From DAOVGU01 sp030637775 [NCBI: bacterium] (GTDB lineage: Bacteria; Ratteibacteria; UBA8468), in the NCBI GenBank assembly GCA_030637775.1, contig DAOWFY010000147.1, forward strand, positions 1 to 10,920: DNA of 10,920 bases. The letters run 5' to 3'. Of the stretch, positions 1 to 6,394 are shown in pieces (the first letter of the stretch is position 1; every line of letters starts with the position of its first letter). The notes under the pieces are model-generated. The model saw nothing but the letters and a program-made list of their open reading frames with translations. It did no database searches and had not been told where the DNA came from. The position numbers and the translations under genes were made by a program.

Positions 1-991
1 CAATAATTTCTTTTGCCTTTGAATCTACTACCCGGAGGGTATCACCCGGCAAAGGAAGGCGCTCGGCACCAAGAATCTTTACCGGTGTAGAGGGACCTGC
101 CTCCTTCAAATTTTTTCCCTCCTCATTAATTAATGCCTTCACTCTGCCAAAAGTGCCTCCGGCAATAAAATTATCCCCAATTTTAATTGTCCCATCCTTC
201 ACAATAACACTGATTGCTTTCCCTTCTCTCTTATCCATTTTTGCTTCAATGATTGTGCCTTCTCCTGATTTCTTGGGGTCGGCCCTTAATTCAAGCATCT
301 CTCCCTCTAAATGTAACATCTCCAATAGCTTTCCAATCCCGACCTTTGTCTTGGCAGAAGTCTCCGCAAAGATGGTCTTACCGCCCCATTCCTCAGCAAC
401 AAGATCTAATTTCGCCAATTCCTTCTTGATCGCCTCGACATTGATGTTGGGTTTATCGATCTTATTGATTGCTACCACAACAGGAACTTTTGCCTCTTTG
501 CAGTGGTTGATTGCTTCAACCGTTTGAGGCATTACTCCATCATCAGCAGCGACAACAAGCAGGACCAAATCGGTGACATGGGCCCCGCGGGCGCGCATTG
601 CCGTAAAGGCCTCATGTCCTGGTGTATCCAAAAAGACGATCTCTTTTTCATCTACTTTGACCCGATAAGCGCCAATATGCTGAGTTATTTCCCCATGTTC
701 GGCTGCGGTGAGTCGGCTTTTTCTGATGGCATCTAAAATAGAGGTCTTGCCATGGTCTACATGACCCATCAGAGTGATGATCGGGGCTCGGGGAACAAAG
801 GAGGGCCTGCCTGCCGGTAAGCAAGGTTCTTTTTTCTCTTCTTTTGCTTTGAAATGAGAAGAGATCCTTTCAATATTTTCTGTTGAAATGGAACTGGCGG
901 CAACCTTTCCTTTAATCCCTAACTCTTCTATAATTTTTAAGAGAGCCTTGCTTGTAACCTTTTCCTTCTTTGCTAATTCGTAAACTCTCAT
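1..991 (-). CDS. infB: Translation initiation factor IF-2, N-terminal 330 residues (3' end beyond the left edge)
   Basis: IF-2 is the GTPase that brings initiator fMet-tRNA to the 30S subunit and promotes joining of the 50S. Seen here: an IF2_N-type helical domain at about residues 1-48 ([19 protein letters not shown]), a short charged linker (49-69), then a complete GTPase domain with G1 GHVDHGKT (76-83), G2 Thr103, G3 DTPGH (122-126), G4 NKID (176-179) and G5 SAK (212-214). Domain II begins near 235 and the gene leaves the window there. Only about 70 residues precede the G domain, so this is a compact IF-2, unlike the long E. coli form. The start ATG is at 991-989, one base past the nusA stop, with no clear Shine-Dalgarno, so translation is probably coupled to nusA. 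The linker carries the peptide CLPAGR, encoded by a palindrome. Confidence 0.97.
806..826. repeat. Imperfect palindrome encoding CLPAGR in the IF-2 linker
   Basis: These 21 bp are centred on CCGG at 814-817. Most flanking positions pair symmetrically (T812-A819, C810-G821, G809-C822, T808-A823, C806-G825) with two mismatches and one wobble. On the coding strand it reads as CLPAG (R follows) between the IF2_N domain and the GTPase domain, a place that tolerates insertions. It may be a copy of a short dispersed palindromic repeat. Only one copy is visible in this window, so repeat status is inferred. Confidence 0.4.
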
Positions 992-992
992 A

Positions 993-2138
993 TTATTTGT
1001 GGCCCATTGTTTCTTTAGCGGCAGTAATGATTTTTTCTGCTCTTTTCTTTCCAATCCCCGAGATCTTTGAAAGAGTAGAGATTGAAGCCTCTGCCAATTC
1101 CTTAATGGAGGAAAGGCCTATTTTTGCTAAGGATGCGGCGGTCTTCTTCCCAATTCCTGGTAGCACGACAATTGCCGGCAAGAGCTCCTCTCTTATCGCT
1201 GAGCGACTCTTAACATTGATTTTGTAACCGGAAAGTTTGGCCGCTAATTTTACATTCTGGCCCTTCTTCCCAATGGCTAAAGAGAGCTGATCATCGGGAA
1301 GAATCACCAAAGCTTCCTTTTTGGCAGGATTTACTCTAACCTCTTCACATTTAGCAGGAGCCAGAGCATTGGCAATAAAAAGGGCAGGGTCTCCATTCCA
1401 GCGGATGACATCGACCCTTTCTCCGCCTAATTCTTTAAGAATCATTTTGATTCTGGAGCCCTTCACACCAATACATGTCCCCAATGGCTCTACCCTTTCC
1501 TTCTTAGAAGAGACAGCGATCTTGGTACATTCTCCCGGGTATCTCGCGATGCTCTTGATCTCTATAATCCTCTCACTTATCTCGGGAATTTCCTCATTAA
1601 ATAAAACTTTGATAAAATCAGGGTGCGTTCGAGAAAGAATTACCGCAGGCTCTTTAGATGTCCTTCTTGCCTCCAGGAGATAACCCCGGATCCTCTCTCC
1701 TCTTCGGTAATGCTCTCGGGGTAAAAGATGCTCATGGGGAAAGATCGCCTCTGCCTTTCCAATGGTAACCAGGAGTCCTTTTGGCTCATATCGCTCCACC
1801 ACGGCACTCACTATCTCCCCTTCTCTCTTTTTAAACTCCTGGAATATCGCCTCCTTTTCCGCTTCCCGCAATTGTTGGATAATAACCTGCTTGGCAGATT
1901 GAGCGCTAATGCGGTCTAAAGGGAAAGCGGAAATAGGCATTCTCTTTCCCTCCTGATCGAAAAAAGCAATCTCACCTGTCTTGGGGTCAAGACGAAGGCT
2001 AATACCATTTTCTAAATTGGTTCTCTTCCGGAAGACAGAGAGAAGTCCCTTTTCAATGGATCTAATCAGGGTATCTCGGTCAATCCCCTTTTCCCTTTCT
2101 AAATAATCAAGAGCATTTATAAGTTCCTTGGCATCCAT
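993..2138 (-). CDS. nusA: Transcription termination/antitermination factor NusA
   Basis: NusA binds RNA polymerase and nascent RNA and modulates pausing, termination and antitermination. The 381-residue protein shows the family order: an RNAP-binding N-terminal domain (about 1-105), an S1 domain (about 106-172, with GLLVTIGKAEAIFP), KH1 (about 173-250, with EPLGTCIGVKGSRIK at 217-231), KH2 (about 265-315, with SLAIGKKGQNVKLAAKL from 286) and a C-terminal helix-hairpin-helix pair (LPGIGKKTAASLAKIGL from 326, and ISGIGKKRAEKI from 359). The start ATG at 2138 gives the usual MDAKELINALDYLEREKGI beginning. No Shine-Dalgarno precedes it. A promoter 9 nt upstream would put the transcript start almost on the ATG. 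ftsK lies 40 nt upstream and infB starts right after its stop. The usual upstream neighbour rimP is absent. Confidence 0.97.
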   Translation of the reverse strand: MDAKELINALDYLEREKGIDRDTLIRSIEKGLLSVFRKRTNLENGISLRLDPKTGEIAFFDQEGKRMPISAFPLDRISAQSAKQVIIQQLREAEKEAIFQEFKKREGEIVSAVVERYEPKGLLVTIGKAEAIFPHEHLLPREHYRRGERIRGYLLEARRTSKEPAVILSRTHPDFIKVLFNEEIPEISERIIEIKSIARYPGECTKIAVSSKKERVEPLGTCIGVKGSRIKMILKELGGERVDVIRWNGDPALFIANALAPAKCEEVRVNPAKKEALVILPDDQLSLAIGKKGQNVKLAAKLSGYKINVKSRSAIREELLPAIVVLPGIGKKTAASLAKIGLSSIKELAEASISTLSKISGIGKKRAEKIITAAKETMGHK

Positions 2139-2146
2139 TGTGTAAT

Positions 2147-2176
2147 AGTTTAGTCCTATTCTTAGCTAATTGTCAA
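2147..2176 (-). promoter_or_regulatory. Candidate nusA-infB promoter in the ftsK-nusA gap
   Basis: On the minus strand a perfect -35 TTGACA (2176-2171) is followed after 18 nt by TAAACT (2152-2147), which keeps the TAnnnT pattern of a -10. The start point expected 7-9 nt beyond the -10 falls at 2140-2138, that is 0-2 nt from the nusA ATG (2138). With no Shine-Dalgarno present, a near-leaderless nusA-infB mRNA is predicted. This would add to read-through from ftsK. Confidence 0.5.
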
Positions 2177-2178
2177 TC

Positions 2179-4179
2179 TTATTTCTTTAATATCTCCCTT
2201 GGCTTGCCTTCCCGGTATGGACCCACAATACCTTCCGCCTCCATCTCTTCAATAAGTCTGGCGGCGCGATTGAATCCAATGCGCAACCTCCTTTGCAGAT
2301 AGGATATGGAGGCTAAATGTGTCTCAAAGACTATTTCCACTGCCTCTTCAAAGAGAGGATCCTTTTTTTCTCCAACTATTCTTTCCTTTTCCTCCTCTAA
2401 AATTTCCGGAAAATAGGAGGGTTCCCCCTGACTCCTCAAGAAATTACAGACCTCCTCAATCTCGGTATCGGAGACAAGACTACCCTGAGCCCGAATTGGC
2501 CTATAAGTTGTGGACGAAAGAAAAAGCATATCCCCTCTTCCCAACAGTTTTTCGGCTCCATTCATATCTAAAATTGTGCGCGAATCAACCTTAGAGGAGA
2601 CCTGAAATGAAATTCTCGTGGGAAGATTTGCCTTAATCACTCCCGTGATGACATCCACCGACGGCCTCTGTGTTGCTAAAATAAGATGGATCCCGGTTGC
2701 TCTTGCCAACTGGGAAAGACGCATAATGCTATTTTCAATTTCATCCCGAGCGATGAGCATCAGATCCGCCAATTCATCGATGATGACAACAACATAAAAG
2801 AGCGGGTTACCTTTTTCCACCTTATTGTACGCTTCAATATTCCTGACCCCTTTCTCCGAAAAAAGATTGTAGCGACGTCCCATTTCACCTACCAACCACT
2901 TTAATGCTCTTACCGAATTTTCCTTATTGGTAATCACGGGCAGAAGGAGATGGGGGATATTGTTATAGGGGGTCAATTCCACCATCTTCGGGTCAATCAT
3001 TAAAAATCTTAATTCGCTGGGTGTATTTTGGAAAAGGAGGGAGATGATTACGGAATTAATACAAACTGTCTTTCCCGAACCGGTCGCCCCTGCAATGAGA
3101 AGATGGGGCATCATCTTTAAGTCTGCCAAGAGTGGCTTGTCCAAAATATCCTTTCCCAGGCATAGGCACAGTTTAGAGGTGGCCGCTTTGAATTCTGGGG
3201 AGAGCAAAATTTCTTTAAGATAGACCAATGTTGCTTTTCGATTTGGTACCTCTACTCCCACCGTTGATTTTCCCGGGAGAGGAGCAATAATACGCACATT
3301 TGGCGCTTTCAAGGCCATCGCAATATTATCGGCCAGCCCCACAATCCGATGGGGGGTAATACCCGGAGCCAACATCAACTCATACATTGTCACTACTGGA
3401 CCTTGACTTATCTCGGTAACCTTTGCCTCTAAGTTAAAATCGGCGATCGTCTCCTCCATGACTTTAGCATATCTTTCTAAATCGGCTTTTTCCTTTTCCT
3501 CTGCCTGCAGTTCAGGCTCTTCTAAAAGAGAAAGGGAAGGTAAATTAAAACCCCCATCCCGTCCACCGGACGGGAGCCCTCCCTCTTTTTTTGGAATAGG
3601 CTTTCTTCGCCTTTTCACGCGGAATCTCGTAATTTTCTTTCTCCGGAAGAAAGAAAGAAAAAAGAGAAAATTCTCCCGGAGGATAAATCCCAAGGAAAGA
3701 AGTAGCCCGACGACAATAAGAGAAATTACAAGAATTAAGGAGCCCTCCTTACCAAGTAACCCTGAAAGGCCCTTCGAAAACCAGAGCCCCAAAATCCCTC
3801 CAGAAAGGTATGCCCTTTCTGTTGTTTTTACTGTCAGCGCCAAAAGAGTGGAGATGCAAAAGAGAAGAAGAAGAGCGCCGGAAAGATTAAGTTTGAGAGA
3901 AAATTGCTCCTTCCCCCAGATCTTATGCCAACCCCAGAGGAAAGTAGCCAGAGGAATTATGTAACTGCCCCTCCCTAAAAGAAAGAGCAATAGCCCGGAG
4001 AGATAGGCGCCGGTGAGACCTCCTAGATTATGGATGCTGCTGGAGGAGGGGAATGAAACCTTCGCAAATTCAAAGCAGGGGTCATATTCCGAATAGGAGC
4101 AGAAAACAAGAACAAGAAAAGCCGTTAAAGTAAAAAGGAGAATCCCTTCGATCCGCTTGATTAAGACCTCATTTTTCAT
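2179..4179 (-). CDS. ftsK: DNA translocase FtsK/SpoIIIE
   Basis: FtsK/SpoIIIE proteins are septum-anchored hexameric ATPases that pump chromosomal DNA through the closing division site. The 666-residue protein has an N-terminal membrane domain with about four hydrophobic segments (roughly 12-30, 53-85, 98-117, 145-168), a basic and then acidic linker (about 178-240), an alpha/beta motor, and a C-terminal winged-helix gamma domain (about 605-663) that in this family reads DNA polarity sequences. Motor motifs visible are Walker A GATGSGKT (364-371), DPKMVEL (396-402), Walker B VVVIIDELADLM (463-474) and LATQRPSVDVITGVIKANLP (501-520). The linker is short compared with E. coli FtsK, so the architecture is SpoIIIE-like. 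The start ATG at 4179 lies exactly where transcription is predicted to begin, and there is no Shine-Dalgarno. It is upstream of nusA-infB and divergent from rbfA. Confidence 0.96.
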   Translation of the reverse strand: MKNEVLIKRIEGILLFTLTAFLVLVFCSYSEYDPCFEFAKVSFPSSSSIHNLGGLTGAYLSGLLLFLLGRGSYIIPLATFLWGWHKIWGKEQFSLKLNLSGALLLLFCISTLLALTVKTTERAYLSGGILGLWFSKGLSGLLGKEGSLILVISLIVVGLLLSLGFILRENFLFFLSFFRRKKITRFRVKRRRKPIPKKEGGLPSGGRDGGFNLPSLSLLEEPELQAEEKEKADLERYAKVMEETIADFNLEAKVTEISQGPVVTMYELMLAPGITPHRIVGLADNIAMALKAPNVRIIAPLPGKSTVGVEVPNRKATLVYLKEILLSPEFKAATSKLCLCLGKDILDKPLLADLKMMPHLLIAGATGSGKTVCINSVIISLLFQNTPSELRFLMIDPKMVELTPYNNIPHLLLPVITNKENSVRALKWLVGEMGRRYNLFSEKGVRNIEAYNKVEKGNPLFYVVVIIDELADLMLIARDEIENSIMRLSQLARATGIHLILATQRPSVDVITGVIKANLPTRISFQVSSKVDSRTILDMNGAEKLLGRGDMLFLSSTTYRPIRAQGSLVSDTEIEEVCNFLRSQGEPSYFPEILEEEKERIVGEKKDPLFEEAVEIVFETHLASISYLQRRLRIGFNRAARLIEEMEAEGIVGPYREGKPREILKK
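3557..3575. repeat. Perfect 8-bp hairpin palindrome in the FtsK linker
   Basis: TCCCGTCC (3557-3564) and GGACGGGA (3568-3575) are perfect inverted repeats with a 3-nt loop. On the coding strand they encode LPSGGRD (FtsK residues about 202-208), in the disordered stretch between membrane anchor and motor. Its G+C richness contrasts with the flanking A-rich lysine/arginine codons. It resembles, in position and in the LPxGxR-like peptide, the palindrome in the infB linker. Confidence 0.5.
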
Positions 4180-4185
4180 GTATTT

Positions 4186-4214
4186 ATTTTACCATATATT
4201 GTCATCTCCTTCAA
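4186..4214 (-). promoter_or_regulatory. Candidate ftsK promoter (extended -10, leaderless)
   Basis: On the minus strand: -35 TTGAAG (4214-4209), 17-nt spacer ending in TGG, then -10 TAAAAT (4191-4186), an extended -10 (TGnTAnnnT). Counting -7 as position 4186, +1 is 4179, the A of the ftsK ATG. No Shine-Dalgarno exists, so a leaderless transcript is predicted. The element lies inside the rbfA promoter, so RNA polymerase could probably not bind both at once. Confidence 0.6.
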
Positions 4215-4227
4215 TCTATGGTAATCT
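4199..4227 (+). promoter_or_regulatory. Candidate rbfA-argS promoter (extended -10, leaderless)
   Basis: -35 TTGTCA (4199-4204, five of six consensus bases), 17-nt spacer ending in TGG (4219-4221), -10 TAATCT (4222-4227, TAnnnT). With -7 at 4227, +1 is 4234, the A of the rbfA ATG. There is no Shine-Dalgarno. The two extended -10 regions of this and the ftsK promoter form an inverted pair, ACCATA (4191-4196) and TATGGT (4217-4222). Confidence 0.55.
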
Positions 4228-4233
4228 TTGAAT

Positions 4234-4572
4234 ATGGCTTATCAAAGGGCAGAAAGGGTTGGCAGGCTTATTCAGCAGAATTTAAGTAAGATCATCCAAT
4301 CTAAATTGGAGGATCCCCGGATTGGTCTGGTCACCATCACGAGAGTAAAGGTGAGTAAGGACTTAAGTTATGCCACAATCTTTATTACCGCGGAGAATGA
4401 TAGAGTATCAAAAAAAAGCCTAAAGATTCTATTGAGTGCCAGGAGATTTATCCGCAAAAGATTGGCCGAGGTTCTTCGACTGAGAAAAATCCCTGAAATT
4501 AGTTTTAAACTGGATGAGAGGATAGAGGAGCTTCAGCGAATCAATGAATTATTCGAAAAAATAAAAAAATGA
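4234..4572 (+). CDS. rbfA: Ribosome-binding factor A
   Basis: RbfA is a small KH-fold protein that binds immature 30S subunits and helps 16S rRNA 5'-end maturation, especially in the cold. The 112-residue product has the family beginning (MAYQRAERVGRLIQQNLSKI), the DPRIGLVTITRVKVSKDLSYA core strand-turn region, the region preceding RRFIRKRLAEVLRLRKIPEI, and the C-terminal FKLDERIEELQRINELFEKI helix. The ATG at 4234 was preferred to an in-frame TTG at 4228 because it matches the family's first residues and because the TTG lies between the predicted -10 and +1. In most bacteria rbfA sits downstream of infB. Here it is on the opposite strand, separated by nusA and ftsK, and linked to argS by a 4-nt ATGA overlap. 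Confidence 0.94.
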   Translation: MAYQRAERVGRLIQQNLSKIIQSKLEDPRIGLVTITRVKVSKDLSYATIFITAENDRVSKKSLKILLSARRFIRKRLAEVLRLRKIPEISFKLDERIEELQRINELFEKIKK

Positions 4573-6215
4573 AGCAGAAGATAACCTTCTCTTTGAAAAA
4601 AGGGATAGAAAGATTAGAAGCCAAAAGGCTCTTAAAGTCGCCTCTTCCTGAAAAGATCCCTCTCTCCCTTTCTGTAGCGCCTCAATTTGGAGATCTTACC
4701 ACAAATATTGCTTTACAACTGAAGAGCGAAAAAAGACCGATGATCTTGGCAAATATTTTGGCAGAAAGTTTAAAAGAAATAGAACTAATAGAGAAGGTGG
4801 AAGTGAAAGAGCCGGGCTTTATCAACATTTTTCTAAAAAAAGAACTTTTTTATCAGGTCCTTTCCTCTGTTCTGAAAGAGGGGGAGAAATTTGGTTCTTC
4901 CCAAATCGGAAAAAGGGAAAAAGTTCTGATCGAATTTGTCAGTGCCAATCCTACCGGTCCTCTCACTATTGCTCACGGCCGCCAAGCTGCTCTGGGAGAA
5001 GCAATGGCTAAAATCCTTATCGCCTGCGGATATCAAGTTACTAAAGAATATTATCTTAATGATGTGGGAGTCCAAATTGATCTCCTGGGCGAGTCCCTTT
5101 CTGCCCGCTATCAAGAAATTTTGGATCTTCCTTTTTCAATGCCAGTTGATGGCTATTTTGGCGAATATCTTAAAGAAATGGCAAAGGATTTGAAGGACAA
5201 ATACGGAAAGGAACTTTTATCAAAGCCAAAAAAGTTCTTCTCTGATTATGCGCGAGACAGTATTTTAAATGGAATCAAGAAGGATCTTTCTGATTTTAAA
5301 GTCCACTTTGATTCCTGGGTCAGGGAGGGAAAATTCCATCAGACTGGCAAAATTAAAAAATCCCTTTCCCTGCTTGAAAAGAAAGGTTATCTTTACCGCA
5401 AAGATGAGGCACTCTGGTTTAAGTCCACTTTTTTTGGTGATGAAAAGGATCGGGTTCTTCAAAAGAGAGATGGCGCCTATACCTACCTTGCTCCCGATAT
5501 TGGTTATCATCAAAACAAGTATGAAAGAGGCTATCATTCCCTTATCGATCTTTTTGGACCAGACCACGATGGCTATCTTCCAAGACTAAAGGGTGCCCTT
5601 ATTGCTTTAGGCCACCCAACACAATCTCTCTCGATCATCATTGTCCAATTAACCACTCTTTATCAAGGAAAAAAGAAATTATCGATGTCTACCAGGAAGG
5701 GGGAATTTATTGCCTTGCGAGAATTAATTAAAGAGGTCGGAGCCGATGTAGCCAGGTACTTCTTTCTTTCGCGAAAGTCGCAGAGCCATCTTGATTTTGA
5801 TTTGGAATTGGCCAAGAAAAATTCCTCAGAAAACCCCGCTTACTATCTTCAGTATGCTCATTCCAGGGTCTGCAGCATTATGAAATTCGCCCGAGAGAAA
5901 GGAATTTCCTGCGAGAGAAGAATTAAACTTTCCTGCCTTTCCTCTCTTAAAGAAAAGGAAGAATTGGACCTTCTTCGGCTCTTGTTCCGATTCCCCTATT
6001 TGATAGAGGCCTCAGGAAGAACTCTTCAGGTTCAGCCAATCTTAAGTTTCCTGCAAGAATTGGCGGGAGATTTCCACAGTTATTATAACAAATTCAGGAT
6101 TGTCACCAAAGAGAGGGATCTAACCAGAGCCAGGTTGCTCTTGACAAAAGGAGTGGGAACTGTTTTAAGAAATGGGCTAAGGTTATTAGGAATTTCTGCT
6201 CCCGAAAAGATGTAA
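4569..6215 (+). CDS. argS: Arginyl-tRNA synthetase (class I)
   Basis: This enzyme charges tRNA-Arg with arginine using ATP, in the cytoplasm. The 548 residues follow the ArgRS plan: an N-terminal Add-1 domain (about 1-105, ending in the KEPGFINIFL motif region near 80-90), a Rossmann catalytic domain beginning EFVSANPTGPL (122-132), and the MSTRKGEF loop (from Met373), the ArgRS form of KMSKS. The C-terminal DALR anticodon-binding domain starts around 420 and ends with the typical LRNGLRLLGISAPEKM. The HIGH box, normally HVGH in ArgRS, reads TIAH (133-136): the first His is Thr and the Gly is Ala, while the second His is kept. The start overlaps the rbfA stop (ATGA) and no Shine-Dalgarno is evident, so translation is probably coupled. 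Length is normal for the family. Confidence 0.96.
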   Translation: MKQKITFSLKKGIERLEAKRLLKSPLPEKIPLSLSVAPQFGDLTTNIALQLKSEKRPMILANILAESLKEIELIEKVEVKEPGFINIFLKKELFYQVLSSVLKEGEKFGSSQIGKREKVLIEFVSANPTGPLTIAHGRQAALGEAMAKILIACGYQVTKEYYLNDVGVQIDLLGESLSARYQEILDLPFSMPVDGYFGEYLKEMAKDLKDKYGKELLSKPKKFFSDYARDSILNGIKKDLSDFKVHFDSWVREGKFHQTGKIKKSLSLLEKKGYLYRKDEALWFKSTFFGDEKDRVLQKRDGAYTYLAPDIGYHQNKYERGYHSLIDLFGPDHDGYLPRLKGALIALGHPTQSLSIIIVQLTTLYQGKKKLSMSTRKGEFIALRELIKEVGADVARYFFLSRKSQSHLDFDLELAKKNSSENPAYYLQYAHSRVCSIMKFAREKGISCERRIKLSCLSSLKEKEELDLLRLLFRFPYLIEASGRTLQVQPILSFLQELAGDFHSYYNKFRIVTKERDLTRARLLLTKGVGTVLRNGLRLLGISAPEKM

Positions 6216-6320: not shown

Positions 6321-6347
6321 CTGAATTGGCCAAATACGTATATTTGA
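6226..6347 (+). pseudogene. Possible remnant or frameshifted small membrane-protein ORF
   Basis: A strong Shine-Dalgarno GGAGG (6216-6220) directly follows the argS stop and is 5 nt before ATG at 6226. In that frame only 20 codons follow (stop 6286-6288). Shifted by one base, the frame from 6234 to the TGA at 6345-6347 reads as a signal/membrane-like segment (FLFLGTIVLWAITASSLPNP) followed by SHLLNW. One extra A in the AAA at 6232-6234 would join the ATG to this frame, giving MTKSLFTRA. The W, SS and P spacing recalls the first helix of VanZ-like proteins, but only about 36 residues remain, so this is a weak resemblance. It overlaps the 98-nt inverted-repeat element, which could equally be non-coding. 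Confidence 0.22.
6331..6346. promoter_or_regulatory. Inverted repeat overlapping the pilB -35 (candidate operator)
   Basis: CAAATA (6331-6336) and TATTTG (6341-6346) are perfect inverted arms around CGTA. The right arm covers the first three bases of the -35 TTGACG. A protein dimer bound here would sit directly on the promoter's upstream edge, so repression or activation is possible. No regulator gene is seen nearby, and short A+T-rich palindromes can arise by chance. Confidence 0.35.
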
Positions 6348-6372
6348 CGTAAATTCCTTCCTGAGGTATAAT
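6344..6372 (+). promoter_or_regulatory. Strong sigma-70-type promoter for the pilus ATPase genes
   Basis: TTGACG (6344-6349), a 17-nt spacer and a perfect TATAAT (6367-6372) make this the best promoter in the window. The start is expected near 6378-6380, leaving a leader of about 15 nt with the purine-rich AGAGG (6386-6390) 4 nt before the ATG at 6395. So this gene, unlike ftsK, nusA and rbfA, has a conventional short leader and ribosome binding site. Confidence 0.75.
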
Positions 6373-6394
6373 ATTAGATAAAGAGAGAGGAAAA

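Follow-up and report, generated by a model that had tools for sequence, protein, structure and literature searches.

Opposed promoter-like elements in the ftsK–rbfA gap of a Candidatus Ratteibacteria genome and a probably old ftsK promoter at the start codon

How can two divergent genes be expressed from an intergenic gap of only 54 bp, and does the overlap of their promoters amount to a choice between two transcription units? These questions are raised by the ftsK–rbfA locus of DAOVGU01 sp030637775, a member of the Candidatus Ratteibacteria class. The window, i.e., the whole 10,920-nt stretch of DNA analysed, is contig C47 of its own assembly (1.40 Mb, 177 contigs, 83.5% complete). The leftward genes in the window are infB, nusA, and ftsK, and the rightward genes are rbfA, argS, and secretion/pilus ATPase genes. 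The features considered here are:

2–1054, minus strand: infB, truncated by the window end
993–2138, minus strand: nusA
2147–2176, minus strand: promoter-like site of nusA, TTGACA-18-TAAACT, 8 nt before the ATG, between ftsK and nusA
2179–4179, minus strand: ftsK
4180–4233: intergenic gap of 54 bp between the divergent genes ftsK and rbfA
4191–4186, minus strand: ftsK -10 hexamer TAAAAT, 6 nt before the ATG at 4179
4194–4192, minus strand: TGG extension of the ftsK -10
4214–4209, minus strand: ftsK -35 hexamer TTGAAG, spacer 17
4199–4204, plus strand: rbfA -35 hexamer TTGTCA, spacer 17
4219–4221, plus strand: TGG extension of the rbfA -10
4222–4227, plus strand: rbfA -10 hexamer TAATCT, 6 nt before the ATG at 4234
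4189–4224: inverted repeat built from both promoters, arms 4189–4201 and 4212–4224
4234–4572, plus strand: rbfA
4569–6215, plus strand: argS, its start overlapping the end of rbfA

Two predicted opposed promoters in 54 bp

A sequence-only reading had placed two mutually nested promoters in this gap. A script check located the hexamers, the 17-nt spacers, and the TGG extensions exactly where that reading had them, and the coordinates put the ftsK -35 inside the spacer of the rbfA promoter and vice versa. Both -10 hexamers end 6 nt before their own ATG by the script (the earlier reading had put the predicted +1 on the A of each start codon), and the predicted transcription start sites (TSSs) lie 55 bp apart. 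Neither ATG in the window has a Shine-Dalgarno sequence close to it, by eye or by script, in agreement with the same reading; a lone AAGGAG in the gap (minus strand, 4211–4206) stands 26 nt away from the start of ftsK and upstream of the predicted TSS. The rbfA -10 matches TATAAT at three of six positions and the ftsK -10 at five of six. Judged by its sequence, the gap contains two promoters of the ordinary sigma-70 type, each with an extended -10, predicted to face outward and to share the DNA between the divergent genes.

Such hexamers could in principle be chance matches, with ftsK and rbfA transcribed from promoters elsewhere and carrying ordinary leaders. A generic promoter scan finds 19 promoter-like sites in the whole window, close to the 14.0 expected (sd 3.7), and two further weak sites extend into the gap (plus strand, 4173–4200; minus strand, 4245–4218); the same scan detects the ftsK promoter and misses the rbfA promoter. 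However, among 200,000 dinucleotide shuffles of the 54 bp, scored by loose rules (TTG, spacer of 16–18, TGN, TA...T, 5–8 nt to the ATG), the plus promoter arose 191 times, the minus promoter 58 times, and both together never, and the position of the ftsK promoter is kept across families, as described below. We therefore regard a chance origin as hardly credible.

Comparison with described systems places the arrangement among known forms. A -10 ending about 6–7 nt before the start codon is a mark of leaderless genes, and both ftsK and rbfA carry it. Leaderless genes with an ORF-adjacent -10 have been predicted widely in a survey (PMC3160421) and described in Deinococcus (Deinococcus-Thermus), where promoter function was tested (PMC12340547). 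As in those genes, the -10 lies about 6–7 nt before the ORF and a Shine-Dalgarno sequence is lacking; unlike there, the present genes have a -35 that can be recognised in addition to the extended -10, belong to the Candidatus Ratteibacteria class, and have predicted starts. In Mesoplasma florum, overlapping back-to-back promoters of divergent genes have been mapped by 5'-RACE, with TSSs 6–7 nt from the -10 and some of them on start codons (PMC7745072). The likeness extends to overlapping outward promoters of divergent genes and to the TAWAAT plus TGN elements; the Mesoplasma promoters have no clear -35, and the sections of that report used here mention neither nested -35s nor a switch. Salmonella bidirectional promoters likewise start divergent transcripts from one DNA stretch, and they arise from -10 symmetry, with overlapping -10s and TSSs 7–25 bp, mostly 18 bp, apart (PMC10268837). 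At 55 bp between predicted TSSs and with separate -10s, the present pair falls outside that symmetric class. Our literature searches found nothing on leaderless promoters in the candidate phyla radiation and, judged by title, nothing on transcription in Ratteibacteria.

Other observations concern the surroundings of the gap. The infB ORF is listed with a TTG at 1054 and so shares 62 nt (993–1054) with the end of nusA; its real start is probably further inside the ORF. Within infB, positions 806–826 (minus strand) hold a palindromic GC-rich repeat in imperfect form, translated as CLPAGR in IF-2; the repeat core CTGCCGGCAGG occurs at several further places in the genome (0 for the reversed control). 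Before a pilus-type ATPase gene, TTGACG-17-TATAAT (6344–6394) lies 22 nt from the ATG with a GAGAGAGG run, which on its sequence is an ordinary leadered promoter and serves as a contrast case. No Rfam family reached its gathering threshold in the window, and the 16S rRNA, sought for its anti-Shine-Dalgarno sequence, was not found in the window's own genome.

Conservation of the two promoters in the genus and the class

In the congener G001 the ftsK–rbfA gap is 80 bp. The minus promoter reads TTGCCT-17-TAAAAT, 6 nt from the ftsK ATG, and the plus promoter TTGTTA-17-TAAAAT, 14 nt from the rbfA ATG. The rbfA promoters of the two genomes align without gaps, and an additional stretch in G001 parts the two promoters, so that both 17-nt spacers are retained and the nesting is not: the -35s stand side by side, and the predicted TSSs are 73 bp apart. 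Of the hexamers and spacing whose conservation in close relatives the sequence-only reading had set as a check, the two spacers of 17 thus stand, whereas the nesting and the distance to the rbfA ATG have changed. An upstream ORF on the minus strand, with its ATG at 4205 and its end across the start of ftsK, was considered as a candidate and rejected; its ATG is absent from the G001 sequence of this gap.

The two promoters form the halves of an inverted repeat with 13-nt arms that are 92% complementary, and the fold z-scores are -3.28 and -3.38. Arms and fold would be consistent with an operator bound by a dimeric regulatory protein or with a transcribed hairpin that carries AAGGAG in its loop. 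We consider either highly unlikely: the exact arm pattern (gap of 12–28 nt) occurs a single time in the genome, the arm bases that survive in G001 are promoter bases and the distance between the arms is longer there, and a hairpin would fall outside the transcripts if both start at the ATGs. Two promoters, rather than a palindromic signal, remain our reading of the gap in what follows.

For ftsK the distance from the -10 to the ATG, which had been proposed as a check in related genomes, held in most of the class genomes with a clear start. The search covered 35 genomes; ftsK was found in 32, 30 loci were returned, and five without an N-terminal match (G004, G008, G027, G028, and G029) were left out, leaving 25 with a clear ATG. 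In 18 of these, TGN-TANNNT ends 6–9 nt before the ATG (6 nt in 2, 7 nt in 11, 8 nt in 2, and 9 nt in 3), and these 18 genes have no Shine-Dalgarno sequence. By family, the pattern is present in f1 3/3, f5 8/9, f3 7/10, f2 0/1, and f4 0/2. Other occurrences within 39 nt of the ATG are one each at 4, 16, and 39 nt, and an alternative in-frame ATG would give 7 nt both in G016 (4 nt) and in G011 (16 nt). Among the loci left out, a cruder script found TATATT with TG at 8 nt in G027 and nothing in G004 or G008. The seven exceptions comprise the one f2 genome, both f4 genomes, three of the ten f3 genomes (one with AGGA, one with TAAATT lacking the TG, and one that fits via another ATG), and one of the nine f5 genomes; G025 and G006 have Shine-Dalgarno-like runs. 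A codon-statistics gene caller misplaced the ftsK start, and the gene-sample counts given below use first-ATG rules instead.

Upstream of the -10, and within a promoter set pre-selected for having the motif, TTG stands at spacer 17 in 3/3 f1 and 8/9 f3 promoters, the ninth f3 promoter having it at 18 (by eye). The f5 core is almost invariant, while bases farther upstream and toward the ATG vary. A run ATTTTATG ahead of the f5 ftsK -10 is invariant in 9/9 genomes and holds an opposed TAAAAT that rbfA could potentially use. The run also persists in G022, whose gap measures 239 bp and whose rbfA carries a separate extended -10 at 17 nt, and for this reason we do not take it for an rbfA promoter. 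Given an extended -10 at 6–9 nt in 18/25 genomes and the absence of a Shine-Dalgarno sequence, ftsK is likely to be leaderless or nearly so, and this would be an old trait.

The rbfA side behaves differently, and the same check on distance fails there. Besides the 14 nt of G001, the f5 genomes have a Shine-Dalgarno sequence in 8/9 cases, and an extended -10 at 6–9 nt before the assigned rbfA start was found in no genome except the window's. A leaderless rbfA, if real, would therefore be confined to the window's genome among those seen. The f3 genomes present another start: in all ten loci examined (L024, L241, L242, L249, L251, L254, L258, L029, L030, and L031) there is no ATG, GTG, or TTG at the expected position, and ATT (eight genomes) or ATA (two) comes after a purine-rich run that resembles a Shine-Dalgarno sequence. 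L029 has in-frame ATGs farther upstream, and L024 has a TTG some codons downstream. These sequences suggest AUU/AUA as possible start codons of f3 rbfA. In G003 (L005, 1370–1500) the DNA ahead of rbfA resembles an inverted repeat, long and imperfect (ccacaaagacacgaag ... actctgtggtg), and may be a dispersed element.

Candidate near-leaderless promoters elsewhere in the genus

Sequences of the ftsK promoter form recur in the genus: the window's own genome has 53 copies of TRTGNTAWAAT, compared with 15 of the reversed pattern, and G001 has 66 compared with 25. The own genome holds 49 distinct sites, of which 15 fall 4–13 nt and 8 fall 14–27 nt before an ORF ATG; a Shine-Dalgarno-like run, judged by eye, accompanies 6/8 of the latter and about 2/15 of the former. 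In samples of 347 kb (own) and 273 kb (G001), TGNTAWNAT stands 4–13 nt before a first ATG in 8/140 and 6/151 cases, respectively, compared with 1/80 and 1/84 for the reversed pattern. Sorted by distance (5–11, 12–18, 19–25, and 26–46 nt), extended -10s number 6, 1, 3, and 0 for the own genome (235 genes) and 5, 2, 2, and 2 for G001 (182 genes). Unextended -10-like hexamers (5/6 match) at 5–11 nt are little above the reversed control (19 vs 17 own; 25 vs 17 in G001).

Outside the family the picture changes. None of 220 genes sampled from six class genomes of other families had an extended 5/6 hexamer at 5–11 nt. Leaderless promoters of this type are therefore not common there, with the proviso that the filter also drops the TAAATT form. 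Outgroups gave 0/28 and 1/29, and G003 gave 1/11. For 20 own near-leaderless sites, 11 have an orthologue among the G001 loci and all 11 orthologues have an extended -10, a proportion that is biased since the loci were largely fetched for bearing the motif and that includes ftsK and the topA pair. Distances to the ATG are 9, 18, 9, 6, 7, 13, 9, 8, 6, 7, and 6 nt in G001 and, in the same order, 10, 10, 9, 6, 10, 9, 10, 8, 7, 8, and 6 nt in the window's genome.

The topA pair is a second opposed arrangement, in a 62-bp gap where topA diverges from an argH-like gene with Lyase_1 and ASL_C2 domains. By position these promoters are nested in both the own genome and G001, and in each of them 56 bp separate the predicted TSSs; the topA -35 of the own genome agrees with the consensus at only two of six positions. 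A strict pattern recovers the opposed extended -10s in 4/4 family genomes, with inner gaps of 31, 31, 29, and 31 bp:

L238, 575–617: topA/argH-like opposed extended -10 pair
L239, 577–619: the same pair
L236, 589–629: the same pair
L237, 609–651 (minus): the same pair

The topA -10 lies 10, 7, 14, and 9 nt from the ATG in the four genomes; for the lyase gene the distance is 9 and 13 nt in two, while G002 gives an ambiguous value and in G003 the -10 is far from the ATG. The promoter pair is thus conserved, as far as its sequence pattern indicates, and the exact leader length is not; this gap would lend itself well to a test of promoter competition.

Nesting, competition, and coupling

Is the nesting itself a switch? 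The sequence-only reading had proposed a reciprocal choice, in which mutual occlusion of polymerases selects either ftsK (with nusA and infB) or rbfA–argS. From the geometry, the two polymerase footprints likely overlap in the gap, and both polymerases probably could not be bound at once. Evidence consistent with a switch is that (i) each -35 lies within the opposite spacer, with the predicted TSSs 55 bp apart, (ii) ftsK and rbfA are divergent neighbours, by coordinates, in 22 of the 28 class genomes in which both were found (the remaining 6 have them on separate contigs), (iii) the gap is 48–143 bp in 13/15 measured genomes, and (iv) the topA/argH-like opposed pair is retained throughout the family. 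However, nested geometry at ftsK–rbfA was seen in the window's genome only and is lost in its congener, gaps in the class vary, two of them measuring 239 and 311 bp, and in G022 a separate extended -10 precedes rbfA. In the window, moreover, the rbfA -10 is weak (3/6), and nusA is preceded by a promoter-like site of its own. That site has a counterpart in G001, TTGACA-18-TACAAT, with a longer leader (34 nt to the ATG), and was not seen in G003. The proposed reciprocal choice therefore fares poorly, and we consider a switch of this kind unlikely.

We also considered a preferred spacing of divergent promoters and rejected it. Several pairs have predicted TSSs 55–58 bp apart, yet others vary: among outward-facing pairs of extended -10s less than 60 bp apart, the inner gap spans 10–54 bp across the two genomes, and a pattern search of 291 genomes matched in 56, with spacings that appeared mixed by eye.

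The account that we favour, and consider probable from the sequence comparisons, is that an old ftsK promoter at the start codon has been joined by a changeable rbfA promoter, with the nesting as a by-product rather than a dedicated switch. The ftsK promoter would be an old TTG-17-TGN-TANNNT element ending 6–9 nt before the ATG, and we infer that the ftsK message begins at or within a few bases of the AUG and is translated without a Shine-Dalgarno sequence. Its conserved divergent neighbour, rbfA, would have a younger or more changeable promoter, of the same form in this genus. In the window's genome the rbfA promoter would happen to lie so close that the two interpenetrate, as a consequence of the short gap and the leaderless ftsK.

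RbfA helps to mature the 30S subunit, and AUU starts are IF3-sensitive. A more speculative thought is that ftsK and rbfA are tied at translation initiation, a leaderless ftsK and an rbfA that, in f3, may start with AUU or AUA both responding to IF3 and the 30S state, but differently; we regard this as a long shot. If true, the nested promoters of the window would be one compact form of a translation-linked ftsK/rbfA pair. One of the works cited in PMC12340547 concerns, by its title, an action of IF3 against leaderless starts.

Under the favoured account, the comparative evidence points to a leaderless or almost leaderless ftsK in several families of this uncultured class of bacteria. This bears on the annotation of start codons and on the translation of essential genes that lack a Shine-Dalgarno sequence, and ftsK and the topA/argH-like pair may serve as conserved test cases for leaderless initiation and for the competition of closely packed divergent promoters.
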